This document shows positions 14,913 to 20,191 of a stretch of DNA of 64,000 nt, piece by piece; the stretch's first letter is position 1, and every line of letters starts with the position of its first letter. The notes beneath the pieces were generated by a model. The model was given only the letters and a program-made list of their open reading frames with translations. It searched no databases and was not told the origin of the DNA. Both the position numbers and the translations under genes were made by a program. The DNA comes from Denitromonas iodatirespirans. GTDB taxonomy: Bacteria > Pseudomonadota > Gammaproteobacteria > Burkholderiales > Rhodocyclaceae. Location: assembly GCF_018524365.1 (NCBI RefSeq), contig NZ_JAEKFT010000002.1:186001-250000 (forward strand), given 5' to 3'.

Positions 14913-15263
14913 TCAGGCGCCCTTGCTGCGGAACATGAAATACACCGCGCCCAGCAGGCACAGGCCGGCCCACAGGTAGTCCTGCTTGAGCGGCTCCTTG
15001 AGATAGAACACCGAAAAGGGCACGAACACCGACAGCGTGATCACCTCCTGGACGATCTTCAGCTGACCGACGCTCATCACCGTGTAGCCGGCCCGGTTGG
15101 CGGGCACCTGCAGCAGGTATTCGAACAGCGCGATGCCCCAGCTCACCAGCGCCGCGATCAGCCAGGGCTTGCCGTTGAGTTCCTTGAGGTGGGCATACCA
15201 GGCGAAGGTCATGAAGACATTGCTGCACAGGAGCAGACCGATGCTGGTGACGACGGGGTTCAT
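14913..15263 (-). CDS. DUF486 (DMT-family) small membrane protein
   Basis: A 116-residue protein with four hydrophobic segments, matching DUF486: TFAWYAHLKEL, SWGIALFEYLLQVPANR and QLKIVQEVITLSVFVPFSVFYL are family signatures. DUF486 proteins resemble half of a drug/metabolite transporter and probably dimerise; the substrate is unknown. ATG 15263 is chosen since the conserved first helix starts immediately; the upstream in-frame start adds a basic low-complexity tail. Convergent with the isomerase gene. Confidence 0.82.
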   Translation of the reverse strand: MNPVVTSIGLLLCSNVFMTFAWYAHLKELNGKPWLIAALVSWGIALFEYLLQVPANRAGYTVMSVGQLKIVQEVITLSVFVPFSVFYLKEPLKQDYLWAGLCLLGAVYFMFRSKGA

Positions 15264-15493
15264 GAGCTCACGAAATCGCGCGAATGCCGGGGGCGGGCGC
15301 CGATTATGCGCCTGACCGGGGCGGCCGTGGCGGACGTCGCGCGCCACCACGCGCCAGTGTCAGGGCGCGGGGTGTCGAGGCGTCCAATGTGGGTTCGGTG
15401 TGCCCGCGGCGGTCTCTTCGGCCTTGGGTGTAAGATGCGCCGAAAACCCATTTGAAGCCGCCCGCCACGCGCGGGCGTACGGAGTAGAACAGT

Positions 15494-16792
15494 ATGGTCC
15501 CTCATCTGACCACCGCCCTCACCGGCCCGCTGCTGGAACTGGAGCGGCAGTTTCTCGACAACCAGACCAAGATCGAACAGTGGTTCCGCAGCCAGTGGCT
15601 GGAGACCACGCCGCTGTTCTATGGCTCGACCGACCTGCGCAATTCCGGCTTCAAGCTGGCGCCGGTGGATCTGAACCTGTTTCCCGGCGGCTTCAACAAC
15701 CTCAACGACGTGTTCCTGCCGCTGTGCGTGCAGGCGGCGCAGGCAGCCATCGAGCGCATCTGCCCGGATGCGCGCAACGTGCTCTTGATCCCCGAGAACC
15801 ACACCCGCAACCAGTTCTACCTGCAGAACGTGGCCAAGCTGGTGAGCATCCTGCGCCTCACCGGGCTCAACGTGCGCATCGGCTCCCTGCTGCCCGAGAT
15901 CACCGAGCCGACCGTGCTTGAGCTGGCCAACGGCGCCACGCTCACGCTGGAGCCGCTCGAGCGGCGCGGCACCCGCCTCGGCGTGAAGAACTTCGACCCC
16001 TGCGCGGTGCTGCTCAACAACGATCTGTCGGCCGGTATCCCGGCCCCCTTGCAGGGGCTGGAGGGCCAGTGGCTGATCCCGCCGCTGCATGCCGGCTGGC
16101 ACACCCGCCGCAAGTCCAACCATGCGCGTGCCTACGACCGCGTGGCCAAGGACTTCGCCGCGCACATCGGCATCGACGCGTGGCGCATCAACCCCGAGTT
16201 CGGCGTGTGCGGCCAGATCGACTTCAAGGAGCGCACCGGCGAGGAATGCCTGGCCGCTCAGGTCGATTCGCTGCTGACACGCATCCGCAGCAAATACCAG
16301 GAATACGGCGTCACCGACGAGCCCTTCGTGGTGGTCAAGGCCGACGCCGGCACCTACGGCATGGGCATCATGATGGTCAAGGATGCGGCCGAGGTGAAAG
16401 GCCTCAACCGCAAGCAGCGCAACAAGATGAGTGTCATCAAGGAAGGCCTGCAGGTGCACGAGGTGATCATCCAGGAAGGCGTGCACACCTTCGAGACCGT
16501 GGATGACGCCGTCGCCGAACCGGTGGTGTACATGATGGATCACTACGTGGTGGGCGGCTTCTACCGGGTGCACACCGAGCGCGGCCGCAACGAAAACCTG
16601 AATGCGCCGGGCGCCCACTTCAAGCCGCTGGCCTTCGAGACCTGCTGCACCCTGCCCGACACCCGGCAGGGGCCGGACGCGCCGCCCAACCGCTTCTACG
16701 CCTATGGCGTGGTGGCGCGACTGGCGCTGCTGGCGGCGGCGGTCGAGATCGAGGAAACCGCCCCGGCGGTGCTGGAAGTCGCCGCGGCATGA
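15494..16792 (+). CDS. gshA: Glutamate-cysteine ligase (TIGR02049 type)
   Basis: ATP-dependent ligase for the first step of glutathione synthesis. The 432-residue protein belongs to the GshA type first noted in Acidithiobacillus ferrooxidans and common in Rhodocyclales and Burkholderiales, unrelated in length and motifs to E. coli GshA. Visible family features are FYGSTDLRNSGFKLAPVDLNLFPGGFNNL (41-69 region), LLIPENHTRNQFY and VKADAGTYGMGIMMV. It begins an operon with a small membrane protein and gshB, each overlapping the next by four bases. TAAGAT at 15431-15436 may be its -10 box. Confidence 0.93.
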   Translation: MVPHLTTALTGPLLELERQFLDNQTKIEQWFRSQWLETTPLFYGSTDLRNSGFKLAPVDLNLFPGGFNNLNDVFLPLCVQAAQAAIERICPDARNVLLIPENHTRNQFYLQNVAKLVSILRLTGLNVRIGSLLPEITEPTVLELANGATLTLEPLERRGTRLGVKNFDPCAVLLNNDLSAGIPAPLQGLEGQWLIPPLHAGWHTRRKSNHARAYDRVAKDFAAHIGIDAWRINPEFGVCGQIDFKERTGEECLAAQVDSLLTRIRSKYQEYGVTDEPFVVVKADAGTYGMGIMMVKDAAEVKGLNRKQRNKMSVIKEGLQVHEVIIQEGVHTFETVDDAVAEPVVYMMDHYVVGGFYRVHTERGRNENLNAPGAHFKPLAFETCCTLPDTRQGPDAPPNRFYAYGVVARLALLAAAVEIEETAPAVLEVAAA

Positions 16793-17046
16793 GGCGTGTC
16801 CCGGCACCGGTCGCCGGCCTGATCGCCGCGATCGGCGGGGCGGTGACCGGGGTGGTGCTGCTGATCGGCGTGCTGTCGATCACCTCGGCCACCACCGAGC
16901 AGCACATGCTCTCGGTGGCCAGCGCCATCGTGGTGTTGCCGGTCGGGCTGATCATCCTGGCCGCCAGTGTGTATGTGGCGCGGCGGGTGTATCACACCGT
17001 CCGCCCGCCGCTTTTCGAAGACCCCCCCGACGACGGAAACGCATGA
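16789..17046 (+). CDS. Small two-helix membrane protein between gshA and gshB
   Basis: An 85-residue protein with two transmembrane helices (residues ~8-31 and ~42-65) joined by a short loop and ending in an acidic tail (FEDPPDDGNA). No family recognised. It starts inside the gshA stop (ATGA) and ends inside the gshB start (ATGA), so translation of all three genes is coupled. The conserved position between two glutathione genes suggests a related role, but nothing in the sequence proves it. Confidence 0.7.
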   Translation: MRRVPAPVAGLIAAIGGAVTGVVLLIGVLSITSATTEQHMLSVASAIVVLPVGLIILAASVYVARRVYHTVRPPLFEDPPDDGNA

Positions 17047-17984
17047 TGCGCCTGGCCTTCATCCTCGACCCCATCGAACACCTCAAAGCCTACAAGGATT
17101 CGAGCGTCGCCATGATGCGCGCCGCCGCGGCGCGCGGGCACCAGGTGTTCAGCATCCAGCGGCCCGACCTGTCCTGGCGCGAAGACCGGGTGATGGCGCG
17201 CGCGCAGCACCTCACGCCGACTGCCGACAACGCCGCCTGGTATGTGCCGGGCGAGGTCACCACCGTGGCGCTGACCGAGTTCGACGCCGTGCTGATGCGC
17301 CAGGACCCGCCCTTCGACTTCGAATACCTCACCGCCACCTGGCTGCTCGAACGCGCGGTGCAGGCCGGCGCGCGGGTGTACAACGATCCGCGCGCGGTGC
17401 GCGACCACTCCGAAAAGCTGGCCATCACCGAGTTCGCCGAATTCACCGCGCCGACCTGGGTCGCGCGCGATGCCGGCGATCTCAACGCCTTCATTGATGA
17501 AATGGGCGACACCATCCTCAAGCCGCTCGACGGCATGGGCGGGGCCGGCATCTTCCGCGTGCGCGCCGACGACCCCAACCGCAACGCCATCATCGAGACG
17601 CTCACCGAGCTGGGCCGCCACACCATCATGGCGCAGCGCTACCTGCCGCAGATCGCCGAGGGCGACAAGCGCGTGCTGATCATCGGCGGCGAGGTGGTGC
17701 CCTACAGCCTGGCGCGCATCCCCAAGGCCGGCGAGACACGCGGCAACCTGGCTGCCGGCGGGCGCGGCGTGGCCATGCCGCTGACCGAGCGCGAGCGCGA
17801 GATCGCCGAGGCGCTGGCACCGACGCTGTGGGCGCGCGGGCTGCTGATCGTCGGCCTCGACGTGATCGGTGGCCACCTCACCGAAGTGAACGTCACCAGC
17901 CCCACCTGCATGGTCGAGATCCACGACCAGCAAGGCTTCGACGTCGCCACCCGGGTCATCGAGACGCTCGAAGCGGCCGCCTGA
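17043..17984 (+). CDS. gshB: Glutathione synthetase
   Basis: ATP-grasp enzyme that adds glycine to gamma-glutamylcysteine in the cytoplasm. The 313 residues match E. coli GshB in length. Signatures are FILDPIEHLKAYKDSSVAMM at the N-terminus, MRQDPPFDFEYLTATWLLE, KPLDGMGGAGIFRV (ATP-binding loop near 165), and GLLIVGLDVIGGHLTEVNVTSPTC at the metal/substrate site. The ATG at 17043 overlaps the previous stop; a longer frame upstream is only an overlap with gshA. Confidence 0.95.
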   Translation: MMRLAFILDPIEHLKAYKDSSVAMMRAAAARGHQVFSIQRPDLSWREDRVMARAQHLTPTADNAAWYVPGEVTTVALTEFDAVLMRQDPPFDFEYLTATWLLERAVQAGARVYNDPRAVRDHSEKLAITEFAEFTAPTWVARDAGDLNAFIDEMGDTILKPLDGMGGAGIFRVRADDPNRNAIIETLTELGRHTIMAQRYLPQIAEGDKRVLIIGGEVVPYSLARIPKAGETRGNLAAGGRGVAMPLTEREREIAEALAPTLWARGLLIVGLDVIGGHLTEVNVTSPTCMVEIHDQQGFDVATRVIETLEAAA

Positions 17985-18068
17985 GCGCCGGTGTGACATG
18001 CTGGGCTGTGCCGGGCCCGGCGTGCATGCTACTGTCACGTCTCCCTTGTTCGAAATGATGCGATAAGC

Positions 18069-19163
18069 ATGAATGCACCCGCGACCCTACCGGCCTTCGC
18101 CTCGCCGGCCGACAACCCCGACGAGCTACGCCTCGAGTTCAGCGGCAGCGGCGGCGCCTACTTCAAGATCTGGATCGTCAACCTGCTGCTGAGCATTCTC
18201 ACCCTGGGCATCTACTCGGCCTGGGCCAAGGTGCGGCGCGAGCGCTACTTCCTCGGCAACACCCTGCTCGACGGCTCGGCCTTCGACTACCATGCCGACC
18301 CGGTCAAGATCCTCAAGGGCCGCCTGCTGGTGATGGCGGCCATCGTGGTGGCCAACATCGCCGTCGAGTTCAACCCGCTGCTCAACCTCGTGGTGATGCT
18401 GGTCTTCGCCGTGCTGCTGCCGTGGATGATCTCGCGCGCGCTGCGCTTTCGCGCCCACAACACCAGTTGGCGCGGCCTGCGCTTCGGTTTCGACGGCCTC
18501 GCCTGGGGCGCCGCCAAGGCCTGGGTGCTGTGGCCGATCGCCGGCGTGCTCACCGCCGGGCTGTTGTTGCCCGTGGCCCTGGCCAAGCAACGGCGCTACC
18601 TGATGAACCACCTGCGCTTCGGTCAGGCGCCGTTCGAGATCGACCTGCCAGTCGGCGCGGTGTATCGCGTCTTCGGCCGGGTGCTGCTGCTGTCGATTGC
18701 GGTGTTCGGGCTGCTCGGCCTGGTCGCCGCGCTGCTGATCGGCTCGGTCGATTTCTTCGCTGCGAGCGGGCTTGACCCGTCCTCCCGCGGCGCCGCCATC
18801 GGCCTGACGATCTTCACCGCGGTGGTGGTGTTCTACCTCGGCCTGGCGCTGATCGCGCCCTATGTCAGTGCCCACCTGTCCAACCTCACCTTCAACCACA
18901 GCAACCTGGGCGAGCACGGCTTTCTCGCCGATCTGGCGCCCGGGCGCTATGTGTTCATCGTACTCACCAACTGGCTGCTGACCGCGTTGACGCTCGGTCT
19001 CTACCGCCCCTTCGCGGCGGTGCGCCTGTGGCGCTACCGGGTCGAGCACCTGGCCGTGTTGCCGGCTGCGCCGCTCGACGACTTCGTCGCCGCACAGGAA
19101 GAAGAGGCGCGTGTCATCGGCGAAGAGGCGGCCGACTTGCTCGATGTCGACCTGGGCTTCTGA
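18069..19163 (+). CDS. YjgN family (DUF898) membrane protein
   Basis: A 364-residue inner-membrane protein with about 8 hydrophobic segments. The DUF898 signature LTLGIYSAWAKVRRERYFLGNTLLDG (near 46-71) is clear, and a second related stretch (LTALTLGLYRPFAAVRLWRYR) occurs near 305-325, reflecting the internal repeat of the family. The function is unknown. It is followed after 2 bp by an M48 peptidase, an arrangement often seen, so the two are probably one operon; the peptidase may act on membrane proteins. Confidence 0.85.
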   Translation: MNAPATLPAFASPADNPDELRLEFSGSGGAYFKIWIVNLLLSILTLGIYSAWAKVRRERYFLGNTLLDGSAFDYHADPVKILKGRLLVMAAIVVANIAVEFNPLLNLVVMLVFAVLLPWMISRALRFRAHNTSWRGLRFGFDGLAWGAAKAWVLWPIAGVLTAGLLLPVALAKQRRYLMNHLRFGQAPFEIDLPVGAVYRVFGRVLLLSIAVFGLLGLVAALLIGSVDFFAASGLDPSSRGAAIGLTIFTAVVVFYLGLALIAPYVSAHLSNLTFNHSNLGEHGFLADLAPGRYVFIVLTNWLLTALTLGLYRPFAAVRLWRYRVEHLAVLPAAPLDDFVAAQEEEARVIGEEAADLLDVDLGF

Positions 19164-19165
19164 AC

Positions 19166-20191
19166 ATGGCCCAGATCGATGCTCGCCTCTTCGACGGCCA
19201 GTCCAGCCGGCCGCACGCGGTGCGCCTGTGCGCCGTGGCCGGCGGCATCGATCTGTTGTTCGAGGACGGCAGCGGCCGGCGCGAGCGCCTCGCCCCGGCG
19301 GCGCTGACCTGGCATGAGCCGCTCGGGCACGCCACGCGCCGGGTCGACCTGCCCGGCGGGCGCCATTGCGAGCTGGCCTGCGGCCCGGCGCTGAGCGATT
19401 TCCTGCGCGCACTCAACCACCGCGAGCGGAGCATCACCCATTGGCAAGGCAGCGGCCTGCGCGTGCTGGTGGCCATCGTGCTGATCCTGGCGGTCGGCGC
19501 GGCCGGCTACCGCTGGGGTTTGCCGCTGCTGGCACGGGGCGTGGCCCATGCCCTGCCGACGGCGGCGGTGCAAACCCTCGACGCGCAGCTGCTCAAGACC
19601 CTCGACGACGGCGGCCTGCTCGAACCCACGGCGCTGGCACCGGCGCGTATCGCCGCGCTGAACGCCGAAGTTGCTCCGCTGCTGGCCGCGCGCCGCAGTA
19701 CCGACCCGGTGCGCCTGCATTTTCGCCAGGCGCCGGCTTTCGGCGCCAATGCCTTCGCGCTGCCCGGCGGCGACATCGTCGTCACCGACGCGCTGGTGGC
19801 GCTGGCGCCCAGCGATGCCCATGTGGCCGCGGTGGTGGCGCACGAGCTGGGCCATGTGGCGCATCGCCACGGGCTGCGCAATCTGATCCAGGCCTCGGTG
19901 CTGGCCGCGGTGATCGGGGTATGGACCGGCGATGTCAGCTCGCTGGCGACCGTTGGCGCGACGATGGTCGCCAGCGCCGCTTATTCGCGCGATTTCGAAC
20001 GCGAGGCCGATGCCTGGGGCGCCGATCTGCTGCACCGCAGCGGCCGCTCGCCGGCCCTGCTCGCCGACATGCTCGAACGCCTCGAGCAGGCACACCGGCC
20101 GGGCGGGAGAGGTGGCGGCCTGAGCGACTATCTGTCCAGCCATCCGGCCACCGCCGAGCGCATCGAGCGCCTGAACCGCCCGACACAGTGA
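19166..20191 (+). CDS. M48-family membrane metallopeptidase
   Basis: A 341-residue peptidase. Residues 1-90 form a small cytoplasmic beta domain, one transmembrane helix follows (GLRVLVAIVLILAVGAAGYRW, near 94-113), then an M48 peptidase domain with AAVVAHELGHVAHRHG (HExxH near 225) and the downstream FEREADAWGADLL with the third zinc-ligand Glu. The active site would face the periplasm if the N-terminus is inside. The gene starts just after yjgN. Related to YfgC/BepA and LoiP-type quality-control peptidases, but with its own N-terminal domain. Confidence 0.85.
   Translation: MAQIDARLFDGQSSRPHAVRLCAVAGGIDLLFEDGSGRRERLAPAALTWHEPLGHATRRVDLPGGRHCELACGPALSDFLRALNHRERSITHWQGSGLRVLVAIVLILAVGAAGYRWGLPLLARGVAHALPTAAVQTLDAQLLKTLDDGGLLEPTALAPARIAALNAEVAPLLAARRSTDPVRLHFRQAPAFGANAFALPGGDIVVTDALVALAPSDAHVAAVVAHELGHVAHRHGLRNLIQASVLAAVIGVWTGDVSSLATVGATMVASAAYSRDFEREADAWGADLLHRSGRSPALLADMLERLEQAHRPGGRGGGLSDYLSSHPATAERIERLNRPTQ

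Follow-up and report, generated by a model that had tools for sequence, protein, structure and literature searches.

What is a small gene doing between the two genes of glutathione synthesis in Denitromonas iodatirespirans? The question is raised by the window analysed here, a stretch of 64,000 nucleotides from contig NZ_JAEKFT010000002.1 of a 5.18 Mb genome (201 contigs), in which gshA and gshB flank a short open reading frame, hereafter orfX. The first-pass annotation had described its product as a two-helix membrane protein embedded in the glutathione operon, with no assigned role.

Organisation of the gshA-orfX-gshB segment

An uninterrupted reading frame is indeed found between gshA and gshB at exactly the positions first annotated. 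The features of the segment are as follows, all on the forward (+) strand.

15494 to 16792 (+): gshA, glutamate-cysteine ligase (PF08886, 4.6e-199, Pfam; TIGR02049, 1.7e-184, NCBIfam)
16789 to 17046 (+): orfX, 85 codons from ATG to TGA, two predicted transmembrane helices, no known family
16789 to 16792 (+): ATGA junction, orfX start on the gshA stop (ATGA in 11/12 homologues, GTGA in 1/12)
17035 to 17039 (+): GGAAA, likely Shine-Dalgarno sequence of gshB within the last orfX codons, a role suggested by the sequence and the junctions
17044 to 17048 (+): TGATG junction, orfX stop and conserved gshB start (12/12 homologues)
17046 to 17984 (+): gshB, glutathione synthetase (PF02951/PF02955, Pfam; NF003573, 1e-129, NCBIfam; family scans run from 17043, the 17046 start being picked by homologue comparison)

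The junctions were compared in a set of 12 homologues, comprising ten from Denitromonas, with the protein of the window (P0001) among them, and two from a second genus of the same family, g55. The overlap of orfX with gshA is four bases in all 12, and the single GTGA belongs to a g55 genome. At the 3' end of orfX the window reads ATGATG and offers gshB two in-frame ATG codons, at 17043 and 17046, which would produce overlaps of four bases and one base, respectively. The second ATG is kept in 12/12 homologues and the upstream one in 6/12, including the window, and 17046 is probably the true start. Four-base overlaps had been annotated at both ends of orfX; this holds at the start, but at the stop the conserved overlap is the single base of TGATG, the four-base version being available in half of the homologues. 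Ahead of the conserved gshB ATG, the Shine-Dalgarno position reads GGAA in eight homologues, GGAG in two and GAGA in two. The position of orfX thus supports the earlier proposal of translational coupling to both neighbours, a coupling that the junctions suggest. A scan of 15200-18200 on either strand for promoters and terminators found none, against 0.5 and 1.4 in shuffled sequences, a result that says little for this organism.

Occurrence and origin of orfX

A homologue of orfX is present in all ten sampled Denitromonas genomes and in both g55 genomes, always in the order gshA-orfX-gshB. Identity to P0001 ranges from 92% down to 55% in the nine other Denitromonas proteins and is 42-45% in the two from g55. 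The same three-gene order was sought across the family, where gshA was detected in 144 of 150 sampled genomes; 143 of these loci were read, in sets of 30 and 113, leaving out one that is cut short (G076). gshB lies downstream of gshA, within about 1.6 kb, in 30/30 and 86/113 of them, and the reading for other small ORFs covered these 116, the remaining 27 having no gshB at that distance. orfX occurs in 6 of the 143 loci (four from Denitromonas and two from g55), all of them among the 116. In the other 110 loci with gshB downstream, the two genes overlap or are separated by fewer than 100 bases in 101 cases. Gaps of at least 120 bases occur in 5 of the 86 loci, and the ORFs within them, judged by eye, encode no hydrophobic hairpins. 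Four of these 86 (L080, L099, L129 and L161) had apparent gaps of -957 to -993, as a GshA-GshB fusion would give; worked out by hand, the two genes prove to be distinct, 0 to 57 bases apart, and the four loci are included in the 101.

Outside the family, 96 loci with gshA were detected in the order and the 26 with the best scores were read; gshB follows in 20 of these, and no ORF for a two-helix protein lies in any of the 20 gaps. Hydrophobicity peaks there at 1.59 over 19 residues, in the PIN-domain gene of a Phd/YefM antitoxin and PIN-domain pair that separates gshA from gshB in a member of another family of the order (L216, 2821-3467). A HepT-like gene occupies the same junction in one genome of the family itself (L082, 509-937). 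In another genome of the order (G051:C1:2621655-2622455), gshA matches as two pieces, with residues ~162-302 unmatched.

Profile searches gave a concordant picture. Of 249 family genomes, 10 gave strong matches, and each of these belongs to Denitromonas or g55; at most 22 first-look candidates were scored per genome. In 369 genomes of the class and 398 of the phylum, with at most 13-14 such candidates scored per genome, no match was listed at E 0.001 except in the genome of the window. The family, class and phylum samples overlap. Three weak matches were dismissed, one for two internal stops (G055, E 0.006) and two because they fall within larger open frames, 840 and 754 codons long (G185 and G188, E 0.007 and 0.009). 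A scan with P0001 of contigs from 84,980 species returned five loci and missed other carriers, and hence is no test of absence. orfX is absent from most gshA-gshB operons examined, the outcome that the first-pass annotation had itself named as a refutation, and a view of it as a general component of the glutathione operon is not supported; it is not a core part of such operons but is lineage-specific, with convincing homologues in the sampled genomes of Denitromonas and g55 only.

The history of the gene was approached through trees of GshA and GshB (35 rows; G004 was left out, its gshB being cut). The 11 carriers included form one group in the GshB tree (93/88; in 92% of the bootstrap trees), in keeping with orfX having been gained once. 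The GshA tree disagrees: the carriers are not grouped, two changes are needed, and one change suffices in 0% of the bootstrap trees. A single acquisition, in which orfX and gshB may have moved jointly between lineages, would fit, despite this conflict between the trees. No convincing second copy was found in the genome of the window, where the other two matches have E values of 0.3 and above; tblastn at E 1 detected nothing in the records of plasmids or phages, and a scan of viral contigs with two peptide patterns found no relative.

The surroundings of the segment differ between the two genera. ApbE lies downstream of gshB in the compared Denitromonas genomes and in five other relatives (L172-L174, L179, L180), whereas in g55 (L170, L171) it is upstream of gshA, with gshA-orfX-gshB still together. 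In eight of the nine compared Denitromonas genomes, the window included (18069-20191), one gene for a DUF898 protein and one for an M48-like peptidase stand between gshB and ApbE, the M48 label resting on a reading of the sequence rather than on a family search. This pair was not found at that place in G007 (L018, L177).

The predicted protein

The view of OrfX as a two-helix membrane protein is supported as a prediction. Its hydrophobic stretches, residues 11-29 and 43-61, have mean Kyte-Doolittle values of 2.56 and 2.61, and two such stretches (2.15-2.85) recur in all 12 homologues, which are 83-86 aa long. An AlphaFold2 model built on the 12-row alignment places helices at 6-35 and 38-71 (pLDDT 79.3, pTM 0.57), and together with the hydropathy it predicts a two-helix membrane hairpin. 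Ahead of helix 1 there are 1-2 arginine or lysine residues, the loop has 0-1, and 2-4 follow helix 2. By the positive-inside rule, this distribution, with few loop charges and arginines after the second stretch, suggests that both ends face the cytoplasm. Invariant positions include T20, P51, R65-R66-V67 and P73-P74, so that the RRV and PP motifs both fall on the C-terminal side. The DG likeness at the C-terminus of the homologues may stem in part from the ribosome-binding site of gshB rather than from the protein.

OrfX reached the cut-off of no known family, and the earlier annotation without a role stands. Scans of OrfX and its homologues against Pfam, NCBIfam and PHROGs yielded only matches below cut-off or with E above 0.01, and a search of PDB sequences with the orfX profile gave two, the better one being PsaM at E 0.097. 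Foldseek returned 32 matches to the model, none better than E 3.9, the outcome to be expected of a hairpin alone. The top one, ATP synthase subunit c, is likewise a helical hairpin of similar length, but its E value of 3.9 is not significant, and profile comparison gave a probability of 1.18% against 0.54% for the reversed control.

The gene is under purifying selection at the protein level. In seven pairs of homologues dN/dS is 0.13-0.39, and in each of them more than one third of the changes fall at third positions (P between 7.5e-3 and 2.5e-9). The corresponding values are 0.02-0.18 for gshA and 0.07-0.26 for gshB, below that of orfX in all seven pairs, so purifying selection on orfX is the weaker. 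In more distant pairs, where NG86 estimates are poor, dN/dS of orfX rises to as much as 0.86; besides the poor estimates, this may reflect a looser constraint.

Candidate roles of orfX

Based on the above data, we tentatively favour the view that orfX is a gene gained between gshA and gshB, whose product is a co-translated small inner-membrane accessory protein of glutathione metabolism. Ribosomes ending gshA would restart on orfX and those ending orfX would restart on gshB, as the junctions suggest, and OrfX would thereby be made alongside GshA and GshB. It would then insert in the inner membrane with both ends cytoplasmic and the RRV and PP motifs on its C-terminal side. More speculatively, the cytoplasmic tail could touch either of the two enzymes or a glutathione-using partner in the membrane. 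This proposal is based on the position of the gene, which is always gshA-orfX-gshB and is kept in g55 despite the altered surroundings, and on the conservation of both junctions; such placement suggests a link of orfX with glutathione. Purifying selection, the recurrent hydrophobic stretches with their charge distribution, and the grouping of carriers in the GshB tree also count in its favour. Against it stand the lack of orfX in most of the operons examined, its faster evolution relative to gshA and gshB, and the GshA tree. Small inner-membrane regulatory proteins are a recognised functional class in bacteria. Like OrfX, they are shorter than 100 aa and hydrophobic, and their genes adjoin that of a potential partner, but we found no sequence relation between OrfX and any described family of them. 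Our searches produced no homologue of known function and no partner tying OrfX to glutathione, and a literature search for a small membrane protein in a gshA/gshB operon found no paper; PMC10581121 mentions ChrE and glutathione, with gshA absent from its main text.

We consider it almost equally likely that OrfX is a useful but unrelated membrane protein, which occupies the junction of a housekeeping pair and borrows its steady expression. Overlapping junctions make loss or separation costly, and retention of orfX alone is therefore no proof of a shared function. Such an origin is rendered credible by the unrelated modules that occupy the same junction elsewhere, namely the Phd/PIN toxin-antitoxin pair and the HepT-like gene described above. 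It also accords with the limitation of convincing homologues to two genera and with the faster divergence of orfX relative to gshA and gshB. However, both of those insertions split gshA from gshB, with gaps of 880 and 820 bases, whereas orfX overlaps its neighbours on both sides in 12/12 homologues; the lack of a convincing second copy in its own genome and of plasmid or phage matches also speaks against a passenger.

The invariance of the proline pair led us to consider control of the kind exerted by CutF, in which orfX would serve as a cis-acting nascent chain governing the translation of gshB rather than as a finished protein. In this scheme, which we regard as unlikely, membrane insertion of the hairpin and the near-terminal prolines would pace the ribosome moving to gshB. 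The passages of PMC9973294 that describe CutF-like proteins give a filter of PP within the last 15 residues, report that no stalled form was found with a reporter carrying the CutF C-terminus, and state that some CutF-like genes overlap the gene that follows them and might work in another way. All 12 OrfX homologues are shorter than 150 aa and carry the invariant PP within their last 15 residues (by hand count), and orfX, like the short CutF-like genes, is immediately upstream of a co-directional gene, whose likely Shine-Dalgarno sequence sits within its last codons. The two differ in that the metal-binding Cys/His motif of CutF-like proteins was not found in OrfX, which has neither a cysteine nor an invariant histidine in the 12 rows, and in that OrfX has two hydrophobic helices. 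With regard to the N-terminal signal peptide of CutF-like proteins, the first hydrophobic stretch of OrfX, at 11-29, is followed by a second. In R. capsulatus CutF a stem-loop shields the downstream Shine-Dalgarno sequence, and no such stem was found at orfX. A consensus fold of 10 of the 12 sequences does place a five-pair stem over TGATG, four pairs of which are invariant, but pairs that never vary are uninformative, the consensus has an unfavourable covariation term (+0.6), and the Shine-Dalgarno sequence lies outside all its predicted pairs. Moreover, in none of three stretches around the gshB start does the RNA form a better fold than its shuffled versions (z -0.65, 1.53 and -0.08). GshB, finally, is a cytoplasmic enzyme, which also argues against this form of control.

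A relationship to Phage_holin_3_6 (PF07332, Holin-X/YqjE-like), of which OrfX would be a remote member, moved and shortened, is very improbable. The family shares with OrfX two hydrophobic helices, and sub-threshold Pfam matches to it occur in 6/12 homologues (best E 0.011). With the orfX profile and filters off, 2 of the 23 PF07332 sequences searched, out of 30 matches, passed the HMMER inclusion line (E 0.0068 and 0.0084, values that refer to a search of these 23 alone; 7.1 and 6.8 bits). Also in favour is the presence of PF07332 above cut-off in 1/10 sampled Denitromonas genomes versus 23/31 other genomes searched. However, OrfX is far below the family cut-off, P0001 scoring 14.6 bits against a gathering threshold of 28.4. 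In hmmsearch the top scores were 5.6 bits one way and 7.1 bits the other, low enough to come from shared hydrophobicity, and hhalign against the 23 members gave a probability of 0.10%, lower than the 0.55% of the reversed-sequence control. Among the non-Denitromonas genomes of the family, PF07332 is above cut-off in 13 of the 15 searched.

That orfX is a spurious ORF of GC-rich spacer DNA is hardly tenable: it is short, and overlapping ORFs are many in this DNA, but reading frame and junctions alike are conserved in the two genera, the gene is subject to purifying selection, and the two hydrophobic stretches recur in 12/12 homologues, which makes it more than a chance ORF.

orfX is thus a genuine lineage-specific orphan membrane protein gene, for which the role of an accessory protein of glutathione metabolism is, by a narrow margin, the likeliest of those considered. 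A bolder and distinctly improbable extension is that OrfX is a recently gained membrane tether, whose co-translational insertion would draw the gshA-orfX-gshB polysome, or the enzymes, to the inner membrane; if so, glutathione would be delivered where membrane-bound detoxification needs it, and a soluble pathway would have become membrane-associated in one lineage. Should orfX act on glutathione synthesis in any manner, it would represent a membrane component added, in one lineage, to a pathway that is usually considered soluble. In either event, orfX documents the entry of a small membrane protein gene into a tightly packed housekeeping pair, with overlaps on both sides, in a lineage whose relatives keep the pair without it.
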